From positions 1 to 64,000 of the forward strand of contig JACRKZ010000008.1 in NCBI GenBank assembly GCA_016235455.1: 64,000 bases of DNA. Reading direction: 5' to 3'. The position numbers and the translations under genes are program-made. The notes below the pieces were generated by a model. It was not told the DNA's origin. It was given only the letters and a program-made list of their open reading frames with translations, and did no database searches. The stretch comes from Armatimonadota bacterium (GTDB lineage: Bacteria; Armatimonadota; UBA10988). Positions 18,404 through 38,463 of the stretch are shown here, one piece after another. How positions within the stretch are numbered: the stretch's first letter is position 1; each line of letters starts with the position of its first letter.

Positions 18404-18444
18404 GGACCGCGCCTGATCCAGCAATGGTCCCACCAGCCGGGCAA

Positions 18445-18481
18445 GGCCGCGGGGCGACCCGTCGCGGGTCGCCCCGCGGCC
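18445..18481. terminator. Perfect 17-bp hairpin between convergent genes
   Basis: The 17-nt arms 18445-18461 and 18465-18481 are exactly complementary around a TCG loop and are followed by TTT on the plus strand and preceded by AA. It sits between the pseudopilin gene and prfB, so it probably terminates both. Confidence 0.8.
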
Positions 18482-18502
18482 TTTGGGTCTCGCCACACCG
18501 CG

Positions 18503-34995: not shown

Positions 34996-36069
34996 TCAGG
35001 CTCGATTGCCGCTGGATGCACGGCCAAGCGTACGCCGGCCACGGGCCAGCCGTAGCCAGAGTACCTCGAGCACCAGCGACGCATTACCGTTGCGCTGCAG
35101 GCTGAGCCGGGCCTCGGCCAACGCCCCCAGCGCGCCTCGGCAGGCGACAGCGTCGAAACGCTCCACAAAGGATAGCAGGTCGCGCTCGAAATCGCGATGC
35201 ACCAACAGACTGGTCTCGCCGCCCGCGGACAGGACCAGCGCATCGCGGTACCACCACTCGAGCAACTCGATACCCCACGCCACCCGATCGCCGGCGACGT
35301 TCTCTTCCTCGCCGCCGGCCAGCCAGGCGGCATGAAGCAGACCGGCGAGCGCCGGCTCCGTGCCCAGCCGCGCGGCGCGACCAAGCAGGTCGGCGCGGAA
35401 GGTCTGGATCGACGAATCCTGGCTCAAGGCCAGCGCGCGGCCCGGTCGCCCGGCGGCCAGCGCGGCGTCGACCGCCGCCTGGGCGGGGGGCACGCCGTGC
35501 ACGCTGGTCAGCCAGTCGACGATGGTCGCGGTGGGCACCAGGCTCAGGTCGAGTCGCCGCAGCCGCGAGGTGATGGTCGGCAGCAGCATGGCCGGTTGCT
35601 CGGTGGTGAGCACGAAGACCATGCGCGCGGGCGGCTCCTCGAGCGTCTTCAGCAGCGTGTTGGCGGCGTCGTCACGCAGCGCTTCGGCGGCCACCAGCAC
35701 GACCACGCGCCAGCCTTCGGCGCTACCGCGCAGGCTGGCCTCATGCAACAGCGCGCGCACGGTCTCGATGCGGTGGATCTTGGGCCGGAACGGGCCGCTG
35801 CCACCCATGCGGTCGGGCTCGATGATGCGCACGTCCGGGGCGTTGCCCGACTCGATGGTCCGGCACGACCGGCACTCGCCGCAGGGCGGCTGCGGGCCGG
35901 TGCAGTTGAGCGCCTGGGCCAGGCCCTGCGCGACGGTCGTCTTGCCGATCTGGTCAGGCCCCCTGAACAGGTAGCCCGACGCGCCGCGGTCGCTGGCCAG
36001 GCCGCGTCGCAGCGCCGCGATGGCGCCGTCCTGACCGATCACCTGGTCCCAGATGGCCTTGCTCACCAT
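34996..36069 (-). CDS. holB: DNA polymerase III delta' subunit
   Basis: A clamp-loader subunit of 357 residues. It has an AAA+ P-loop (GPDQIGKTT), the four-Cys zinc module (C...CGECRSC) and the diagnostic NTLLKTLEEPP. The SRC motif reads SRL (TITSRLRRLDL), as usual for subunits that do not hydrolyse ATP like DnaX. ATG 36069 (MVSKAIWDQVIGQ) overlaps the end of tmk by 7 bp, giving the common tmk-holB pairing. Confidence 0.92.
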   Translation of the reverse strand: MVSKAIWDQVIGQDGAIAALRRGLASDRGASGYLFRGPDQIGKTTVAQGLAQALNCTGPQPPCGECRSCRTIESGNAPDVRIIEPDRMGGSGPFRPKIHRIETVRALLHEASLRGSAEGWRVVVLVAAEALRDDAANTLLKTLEEPPARMVFVLTTEQPAMLLPTITSRLRRLDLSLVPTATIVDWLTSVHGVPPAQAAVDAALAAGRPGRALALSQDSSIQTFRADLLGRAARLGTEPALAGLLHAAWLAGGEEENVAGDRVAWGIELLEWWYRDALVLSAGGETSLLVHRDFERDLLSFVERFDAVACRGALGALAEARLSLQRNGNASLVLEVLWLRLARGRRTLGRASSGNRA

Positions 36070-36710
36070 GCCCTGCCCGCCAGCCAGTCCTCGACCACCG
36101 CCCGTATGCGCGTCTCCACCTCGTCCGGCGTGCCCTGGGCCGAGACCAGCCGGACACGGGCCGGGTCGGCGGCGGCCAGCGCACGGAACCCATCGCGCAC
36201 ACGCTGATGGAAATCGCTCTCGCGGGCCTCGATGCGGTCGGCCTCGCGGCCCTGACGCCGCGCCGCGGCGGTCTCGGTGGACAGGTCCAGCACGATCACC
36301 CCGTCGGGCAACAGGTCGTCGCGCGCGAAGGCATCGGCGGCGCTGACCGCGACCAGGTCGAGCCCGAGACCATAGCACTGGTAGGCCAGCGTCGAGTGCG
36401 AGAAGCGCGAGCAGATGACCCAGTCACCGCGCTCCAGCGCCGGCCGGATGACCGTGTCGACATGCTGCGCGCGCGCCGCGAGGAACAGCATCGCCTCGGC
36501 GCGCGGCACCGGCCCGTCGGCGCCGTGGCCACGCAGCCAGCCGCCGACCGCTTCGCCCAACGGCGTGCCCTCGGGTTCGCTGGTAACCAGCACCCGCTCG
36601 CCACGCGCGGTGAGCCAAGCCACCAGCCGCTCGATCTGGGTGCTCTTGCCGCCACCGTCCACGCCTTCGAGCGTGATGAACAGCCCGCGCCGGCTCGCCT
36701 CGTTTGCCAT
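36063..36710 (-). CDS. tmk: Thymidylate kinase
   Basis: Phosphorylates dTMP to dTDP. It has a P-loop GVDGGGKST (16-24), FHQRVRDGFRAL and a LID with RRQGREADRIE. 215 residues. Two usual motifs are altered: the DRY/DRH motif is SRF (101-103, ICSRFSHSTLAYQ) and TREPGGT reads TSEPEGT. Overall length and context (holB directly follows) still make tmk the best call. Its ATG lies 6 nt from a -10 box with no ribosome site, so the mRNA may be leaderless. Confidence 0.88.
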   Translation of the reverse strand: MANEASRRGLFITLEGVDGGGKSTQIERLVAWLTARGERVLVTSEPEGTPLGEAVGGWLRGHGADGPVPRAEAMLFLAARAQHVDTVIRPALERGDWVICSRFSHSTLAYQCYGLGLDLVAVSAADAFARDDLLPDGVIVLDLSTETAAARRQGREADRIEARESDFHQRVRDGFRALAAADPARVRLVSAQGTPDEVETRIRAVVEDWLAGRAW

Positions 36711-36716
36711 GCTCGC

Positions 36717-36745
36717 ACGATAGCAGCCCGCGTGAGCGTGGTCAA
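36717..36745 (-). promoter_or_regulatory. Promoter of the tmk operon (leaderless)
   Basis: On the minus strand, TTGACC (36740-36745) and TATCGT (36717-36722) are 17 nt apart. The -10 ends 6 nt before the tmk ATG, so the start site would be at about the A of ATG. Confidence 0.65.
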
Positions 36746-36767
36746 CGCTCCCGCCGGCCGCTACAAT
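36739..36767 (+). promoter_or_regulatory. Promoter of the glycosyltransferase gene (leaderless)
   Basis: TGGTCA (36739-36744) and TACAAT (36762-36767) are 17 nt apart, the -10 ending 6 nt before ATG 36774. Its -35 overlaps that of the divergent tmk promoter, so the two compete for the same 63-bp gap. Confidence 0.6.
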
Positions 36768-36773
36768 GACGGG

Positions 36774-37883
36774 ATGCACGTTCTGCTCGACGCGCGACCC
36801 ATTCTGGCGGCCAAGACCGGCGACCGCAGCTACTGGCTGGGGCTGTGCCGGGCGCTGCCCGCGGCCTGGCCCGAGTGGCGGTTCACCGTGGCGCTCGACG
36901 GCGCGCCCGAACCGGGGTTGCTGCCCGACCTGCCCAACCTGTCTGTCGCCGTCGAGCCGCGGCCCGGCGGGCGGCTGTGGCCGGTGGTCGCGCTGCCCCG
37001 GCTGGCGCGGCGCCTGCGGGTCGACCTGGTCCACTTGCAGTACGTGGCGCCGCCCTATCTGCCATGCCCGTTCGTCACGACGGTCCATGACGTGTCGTTC
37101 GCGTTGTTCCCCCACTACTTCACCTGGCGCGACGGCACCTGGCTGCGCACGCTGGTGCCGCCGTCGGCGCGGCGCGCGGCGGCGGTGGTGGCCGACTCCG
37201 AGACGACCCGCGCCGACCTGCTGCGCCTGTGGCGGCTGGTACCCGACCGCGTGCGGACGCTCAGCCTGGGGCTCGACGCCGCATACCGGCCGGATGCCGA
37301 ACAGGCTTCGGCCGCGCGCGCCAAGTGGGCTCTGCCCGAGCGCTACCTGCTCAGCGTCGGCGTGCTGCAGCCGCGCAAGAACCTGGCTGGGCTCATCGCC
37401 GCCTACGGCCGGGCGCGGGCCGAGCATGGCCTGACGGAGCCGCTGGTGGTCGTCGGCAAAACCGGCTGGCTGGCCCAACCCATCTTCGACCGCGTGGCCG
37501 AGCTCGGCCTGACAGACCATGTGCGCTTCCTCGGTTATGTGCCCGACGACGATCTGCCGGGGCTGTACGGCGGCGCGCTGTTCACGCTCTATCCGTCGCT
37601 CTACGAAGGCTTCGGTCTGCCGCCCCTGGAGTCGCTGGCCTGCGGCACGCCGGTCATCGTCAGCACCACGCCGGCCCTGGCCGAGACCGCCGGGCCCGTG
37701 GCGCCGATGCTGCCGCCCGAGGACACCGCGGCCTGGGCGGCGGCCATGGCGCGGCTGGCGGGCGACGAGGCCGAGCGTGCGCGGCTGGCCGAGACCGGCC
37801 TGGCCTGGGCGGCGGCGTTCACCTGGGAACGCTCGGCGCGGCAGCACGGCGAGGTGTATCGTGCGGCGCTGGGCCGGGCGTAG
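36774..37883 (+). CDS. Glycosyltransferase family 4 (GT-B fold)
   Basis: A 369-residue GT4-type transferase that moves a sugar from an NDP-sugar to a glycan or lipid acceptor. The C-terminal Rossmann domain has LLSVGVLQPRKNLAGLI, VRFLGYVPDDDLPGLY and the EX7E motif region YEGFGLPPLESLACGTPVI. The N-terminal domain has TVHDVSFALFPHYF. It is isolated from other polysaccharide genes, so the acceptor is unknown. ATG 36774 lacks a ribosome site, consistent with a leaderless message. Confidence 0.88.
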   Translation: MHVLLDARPILAAKTGDRSYWLGLCRALPAAWPEWRFTVALDGAPEPGLLPDLPNLSVAVEPRPGGRLWPVVALPRLARRLRVDLVHLQYVAPPYLPCPFVTTVHDVSFALFPHYFTWRDGTWLRTLVPPSARRAAAVVADSETTRADLLRLWRLVPDRVRTLSLGLDAAYRPDAEQASAARAKWALPERYLLSVGVLQPRKNLAGLIAAYGRARAEHGLTEPLVVVGKTGWLAQPIFDRVAELGLTDHVRFLGYVPDDDLPGLYGGALFTLYPSLYEGFGLPPLESLACGTPVIVSTTPALAETAGPVAPMLPPEDTAAWAAAMARLAGDEAERARLAETGLAWAAAFTWERSARQHGEVYRAALGRA

Positions 37884-37930: not shown

Positions 37931-37946
37931 GTACAGTGTTCTGTAC
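37931..37946. promoter_or_regulatory. Palindromic operator of the YefM-YoeB-type module
   Basis: GTACAGTGTTCTGTAC is a perfect 6-4-6 palindrome ending 11 nt before the antitoxin ATG. YefM operators are palindromes with a TGTACA-like core, so this is the expected self-regulation site, intact although both genes are broken. Confidence 0.6.
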
Positions 37947-37957
37947 CGGAAGCAGCC

Positions 37958-38223
37958 ATGGACGCCATCGGCTACGCCAGGCTCGACAGAGGCTGGCCGC
38001 CACCATGAAGCAGGTGTGCCGTGACCAGCAACCGGTGATCATCACCCGGCAGCGCGCGGAATCGGTGGTTATGCTCTCGATTCGGGAGTTCGAGTCGCTC
38101 GAGGAGACCGCCCATCTGCTGCGCAGCCCGGCCAATGCTCGTCGGTCGCTGGAGGCCATTGCCCGCCTCGACGCCGGACAGGCGCAGGTGCGGGAACGGA
38201 TCGATGACCCTGGCCTTCAGTGA
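37958..38223 (+). pseudogene. yefM: YefM/Phd-type antitoxin with 1-nt deletion
   Basis: The N-terminus MDAIGYA (from ATG 37958) is in one frame; ARQRLAATMKQVCRDQQPVIITRQ through SLEETAHLLRSPANARRSLEAI is in another, stopping at 38223. The span is one base short of whole codons, so a single deletion near 37979-37983 broke it. The family is clear: SPANARRxLEA is the YefM toxin-binding tail. Translation could restart at ATG 38005, losing part of the DNA-binding domain. It overlaps the toxin by 20 bp. Confidence 0.8.
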
Positions 38224-38463
38224 ACGGGCCTGGGAGGACTACCTCTACTGGCAAGCCACGGACCGGCGCATGTTCAAGCGCATCAACGAACTGATCCGCG
38301 ACGCGATGCGTGATCCTTCAGCGGCATCGGCAAGCCAGAGCCGTTGTGTCAACTGTTGGCGGGCCGCTGGTCACGCCGCATCGGTAGCGAGCACCGCATG
38401 GCCTATCGCGTCACCGACGACGACCACCTGCTGATCGCGCAATTCCGCTACCACTACGGCTGA
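38204..38463 (+). pseudogene. yoeB: YoeB/Txe-type toxin with 1-nt deletion
   Basis: Begins MTLAFSERAWEDYLYWQATDRRMFKRINELIRD, as in YoeB ribosome-dependent mRNA endonucleases. The frame breaks at 38313-38319, where DP(F)SGIGKPEPL is expected and one T of a short run is missing. The remaining frame encodes [20 protein letters not shown] and ends IAQFRYHYG, with the catalytic Glu/Arg/His region and terminal His-Tyr present. One base restored would give a full 86-residue toxin. Its end overlaps the converging TPR/HEAT gene by 10 bp. Confidence 0.8.

Follow-up and report, generated by a model that had tools for sequence, protein, structure and literature searches.

The 63 nt that separate tmk from a divergently transcribed glycosyltransferase gene (GT) probably hold two leaderless housekeeping promoters, placed back to back over one shared -35 region at a lineage-specific junction. 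The arrangement is real and mostly ordinary, being of a known type at the compact end of its range. What had escaped remark is a near-mirror symmetry of the gap. In the following, the window is the whole stretch of DNA that was analysed (64,000 nucleotides); the relatives are G001, from the same genus, and G002 and G003, from other genera of the same family.

Geometry of the tmk/GT gap

The tmk gene (36063..36710, minus strand; start placed by coding potential) encodes a thymidylate kinase of 215 aa (PF02223, 1.2e-40). It is the first gene of a tmk-holB unit and overlaps the holB (delta') ORF (34996-36069, minus strand; PF13177). GT (36774..37883, plus strand) encodes a GT4-family glycosyltransferase of 369 aa (PF00534, 6e-28; PF13439, 5.9e-16). 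The earlier note had named tmk and the glycosyltransferase correctly. Downstream of GT, at 37936-38434 on the plus strand, lie a Phd/YefM antitoxin gene (PF02604) and then a YoeB-like gene, which matches positions 1-34 of 80 in one frame, continues in another, and is apparently frameshifted or carries a sequencing error. Elsewhere in the window, a perfect inverted repeat with 17-bp arms (AGGCCGCGGGGCGACCCGTCGCGGGTCGCCCCGCGGCCT) at 18444-18482 stands between convergent genes and is probably a terminator hairpin. A search of the 64 kb for Rfam families at gathering score gave none.

The two start codons, ATG at 36710-36708 (minus strand) and ATG at 36774-36776 (plus strand), enclose positions 36711-36773. 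Read on the minus strand towards tmk, the gap contains TTGACC-N17-TATCGT-GCGAGC-ATG, with the -35 box at 36740..36745 (read 36745-36740) and the -10 box at 36717..36722 (read 36722-36717), the latter directly preceded by TGC in the manner of an extended -10. Read on the plus strand towards GT, it contains TGGTCA-N17-TACAAT-GACGGG-ATG, with a candidate -35 box at 36739..36744 and the -10 box at 36762..36767. The two -35 hexamers share 5 bp (36740-36744), so that core elements of the divergent promoters overlap. The earlier note had described this promoter pair, and on re-reading the sequence all of its coordinates and elements proved exact, including the -10 boxes that end exactly 6 nt before each ATG, within the 6-7 nt expected of a leaderless TANNNT. 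Judged only by that spacing, transcription would start at the seventh base after each -10 box, i.e. at the A of the ATG (36710 for tmk, 36774 for GT). Neither gene has a Shine-Dalgarno (SD) sequence, also as noted before: the anti-SD duplex energies are -2.5 kcal/mol (tmk) and -1.7 kcal/mol (GT), the medians being -6.0 kcal/mol for genes and -2.9 kcal/mol for random intergenic sequence. Pairing of -5 kcal/mol or better is found in 60% of genes, and the 16S of this genome retains the anti-SD CCTCC.

The individual boxes differ in quality. The tmk -35 matches the consensus at 5/6 positions; allowing three spacings, chance alone would give this in about 1% of cases. The GT -35, at 4/6, is a weak match that is expected at about 8% of random intergenic positions and is not significant alone. 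Its weakness would fit a simpler arrangement in which tmk alone has a promoter here, the TACAAT before GT occurs by accident, and transcription of GT is weak or starts somewhere else. We consider this unlikely, as TACAAT itself agrees with the consensus at 5/6 positions and stands precisely where a leaderless -10 would, GT, backed by the divergent tmk, comes first on its strand, and the orthologue in the same genus retains a TACACT-N6-ATG in another context.

A different start of translation for one or both genes would make the leaders longer or the geometry accidental. The GT frame is indeed open upstream of its ATG, and in a first gene-calling run coding potential alone favoured a GTG at 36732, 14 codons upstream. 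This GTG lies inside the promoter and, like the other GTGs, lacks an SD; the gene-calling run with the larger sample picked the ATG. The GT orthologues in G001-G003 all start ATGCACGT at the same residue as GT, and the G001 orthologue has an in-frame TGA 7 codons upstream, with no other start codon between. With these observations set against it, an alternative start is highly improbable.

Leaderless-type promoters in the genome and its relatives

The strict pattern TTGAC-N17..20-TANNNT-N6..7-ATG has 26 matches in this genome, the tmk promoter among them, and one match in the reversed control (this evidence stands under the label LEADERLESSNESS). The corresponding ratios are 17:2 in G001, 28:1 in G002, 26:1 in G003 and 27:5 in another family of the order. 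Among 121 genomes of the phylum, the pattern exceeds its control in most, with several families well above it (e.g. 51:5 in G065, 36:1 in G104 and 37:3 in G094) and several genomes in which the excess is small or absent. The plain TANNNT-N6-ATG is uninformative alone (189 versus 149 in the control). When the distance between the -10 box and the ATG was varied, the counts summed over four genomes (G000-G003) were 34 at N4-5, 97 at N6-7, 43 at N8-9 and 29 at N11-12. Real promoters occur at the neighbouring distances of 4-5 and 8-9 nt as well, and transcription might therefore begin 1-3 nt away from the ATG. In a gene-aware sample, TANNNT is commonest at offsets of 6 and 7 nt upstream of called starts (11 at each), versus 1-7 at the other offsets between 0 and 15. 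The enrichment of the strict pattern in several families suggests that leaderless genes are widespread in this phylum.

Zheng et al. 2011 (PMC3160421) describe a TANNNT that lies about 12 nt before the start codon as the mark of leaderless bacterial genes. The promoters here resemble that class, as characterised there, in having the -10 box 6-7 nt before the start, a high-GC genome (69.5% G+C in a first 0.84-Mb sample) and no SD. They differ from it in that a TTGAC -35 is also visible, and the groups named in the parts of that study that deal with the class do not include Armatimonadota.

The orthologues point the same way in part. The tmk orthologue of G002 carries TTGACC-N18-TAGACT-N7-ATG, and the GT orthologue of G001 carries TACACT-N6-ATG, each with a gene context unlike that of the tmk/GT gap, so the spacing between -10 box and ATG is kept in one orthologue of each gene. 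The gene before GT in G001 ends in a sequence that, read by eye, we take to be Era-like. In G002, GT is on another contig from tmk and is preceded by TTGACC-N18-TACAAC and then a short SD-like leader; the leaderless arrangement is not kept at this gene, and in G003 it is found at neither. The leaderless state thus turns over. The G001 GT orthologue (L118 863-2304, G001:C102) aligns as two segments (residues 1-91 and 78-345) that lie ~370 bp apart in different frames, through an insertion, a broken gene or a misassembly. With the genome-wide enrichment and the orthologue comparison combined, the earlier prediction that both genes are leaderless is well supported.

We also asked how surprising such a pair is. 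About a quarter of the genome (1.6 Mb) was sampled in stretches, giving 1119 called genes and 159 divergent pairs; gene calling relied on a Markov model built for the purpose, whose start choices are uncertain, and near-optimal alternative starts were therefore counted too. Among the 159 pairs, tmk/GT alone has the mark before two ATGs, and a second scoring pair has GTG/GTG starts and a gap of 168 nt. When the mononucleotides of the gap were shuffled 200,000 times, both start codons had a TANNNT ending 6-7 nt away in a fraction of 5.5e-5. Supposing a few per cent of all genes to be leaderless, and with roughly 650 divergent pairs in the whole genome (an extrapolation from the sample), independent assortment gives about one such pair, so the pairing needs no special explanation. 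The unusual feature of the locus is the very short gap, 63 nt versus a 5th percentile of 83 nt for divergent gaps in the sample.

A palindrome centred on the shared -35

The earlier note did not mention that the gap is nearly its own mirror image. An imperfect palindrome covers 36721..36763, with 19-bp arms (36721-36739 and 36745-36763) that are 84% complementary around a 5-nt centre, GGTCA; its core, GAGCGT-N5-ACGCTC, is at 36734-36750, and its centre coincides with the overlapping -35 boxes. The symmetry can be followed out to about 22 bp from the centre and weakens farther out. The 17-bp spacers of the two promoters are identical at 14/17 positions, a match with a probability of 1e-5 against shuffles and, by the fairer null of same-class promoters, one reached by 1 of 3321 spacer pairs. 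Among the 157 sampled divergent gaps with a length of 45 nt or more, 4 contain a palindrome of this quality at any position; apart from the tmk/GT gap, these measure 191-375 nt. The potential of the gap DNA to form a hairpin is within that of shuffles (z -1.2).

The symmetry could be an operator at which a dimeric regulator binds the shared -35 and switches or represses both genes. The length and complementarity of the arms, their exact centring on the -35 and the rarity of the spacer identity speak for this reading, and there is a precedent in LysG, which binds an inverted repeat between the overlapping lysG and lysE promoters (PMC5648196); an inverted repeat between the promoters is likewise present here. 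Against it, the neighbours are tmk and GT, neither of them a regulator, and no regulator gene lies next to the pair. No second copy of the core with its 5-nt spacing was seen in the genome. A regulon search with the core gave ten places in this genome (two in the control, and one each in G001-G003) with inconsistent spacings and hence no regulon; the nine further places have other spacings, and two of the three that could be placed are inside genes. Nor was a comparable palindrome seen in the promoters of the relatives, and the unexceptional hairpin potential is a further point against an operator, which we regard as unlikely.

The symmetry might instead be a trace of origin with no function, left when template switching across a short inverted repeat part-copied one promoter from the other. 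Template switching homogenises the arms of inverted repeats (PMC8604942, PMC7202029), and a symmetry that fades some 22 bp from the centre is what such an event might leave. The GT -10 box, however, looks ancestral (cf. TACACT in G001 and TACAAC in G002), so at most the -35 and spacer would have been copied, and two other promoter spacers agree with that of GT at 13/17 positions, so that a common GC-rich composition explains part of the likeness. We hold such a copying event to be improbable too, although a relic combined with partial composition effects was given more weight than an operator, because the core at this spacing has no second copy in the genome and neither gene beside it encodes a regulator. 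A template-switch origin is compatible with back-to-back leaderless promoters, as it concerns only where they came from.

The most elaborate reading is a self-symmetric 63-bp module, in which the palindrome forms the shared -35 and a polymerase or dimeric regulator bound at the dyad would divide transcription between tmk-holB (DNA precursors) and GT (glycans), with no untranslated RNA on either side. We give it very little credence.

Occupancy, history and known divergent promoters

The reading that we prefer has two promoters of the housekeeping (sigma-70/sigma-A) type, set back to back in a divergent gap of minimal length. Transcription would begin at, or about a nucleotide from, the A of each ATG, and both mRNAs would then be leaderless, with ribosomes presumably recognising the AUG at the 5' end directly. 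The -35 determinants of both promoters fall on a common 7 bp (TTGACCA/TGGTCAA), which would admit one holoenzyme at a time. The size of the holoenzyme footprint is well established; as sigma-4 would contact the same 7 bp at both promoters and the predicted starts are separated by 64 bp, the geometry makes it very unlikely that two polymerases bind at once. The earlier claim that the promoters must exclude each other thus stands as geometry. A regulatory effect does not follow from it: at E. coli bidirectional promoters, basal activity is too low for competition, which appears on strong activation (PMC12825309). Any coupling of expression between the two genes is likewise something that we would only infer.

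Comparable arrangements have been described. In Mycobacterium tuberculosis, where closely juxtaposed divergent promoters are called common, prpD (Rv1130) and Rv1129c are adjacent divergent genes with start sites at 1254630 and 1254510 (PMC3898074). Both transcripts were mapped as leaderless there, whereas here they are predicted to be so; the starts are 120 bp apart rather than 64, one of the genes is a regulator, and both are co-induced in starvation. The lysG/lysE region of the same species resembles tmk/GT in its short gap with an inverted repeat at the centre and in its overlapping -10/-35 motifs, and one of its transcripts is leaderless, as predicted for both here; but its gap is 108 bp and the LysR-type regulator shown to bind the repeat is the product of one partner gene (PMC5648196). 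The E. coli bidirectional promoters of Warman et al. 2026 (PMC12825309) are similar in their divergent transcription and in having room for one polymerase. They use a shared, symmetric -10 with starts about 10-23 bp apart; in the tmk/GT gap the -35 is shared, the -10 boxes are separate and the predicted starts are 64 bp apart, and we therefore rejected a promoter of that type.

The pairing of tmk with GT was not detected in G001, G002 and G003, where the best GT orthologue and tmk are on different contigs; these are draft assemblies, in which separate contigs alone do not prove distance, and the sequence directly upstream of each gene also differs. The flanking sequence retrieved around tmk contained no GT in any relative, and a scan of genome contigs returned distant tmk genes only. 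A conserved tmk/GT divergence was rejected, the pair not being found together in the relatives searched, the same genus included, and nothing points to a conserved reciprocal switch. Judged from these sequences, the junction is probably lineage-specific. It would have placed tmk beside GT and shortened the gap, and leaderless promoters may have made so short a gap workable.

If this is correct, the gap would be a compact natural template for studying how two polymerases make use of one -35 with neither transcript having a leader. More broadly, in this high-GC lineage, which has received little study, leaderless-type promoters appear to be a regular class, though a minority, with the sequence signature TTGAC-N17-TANNNT-N6/7-ATG.
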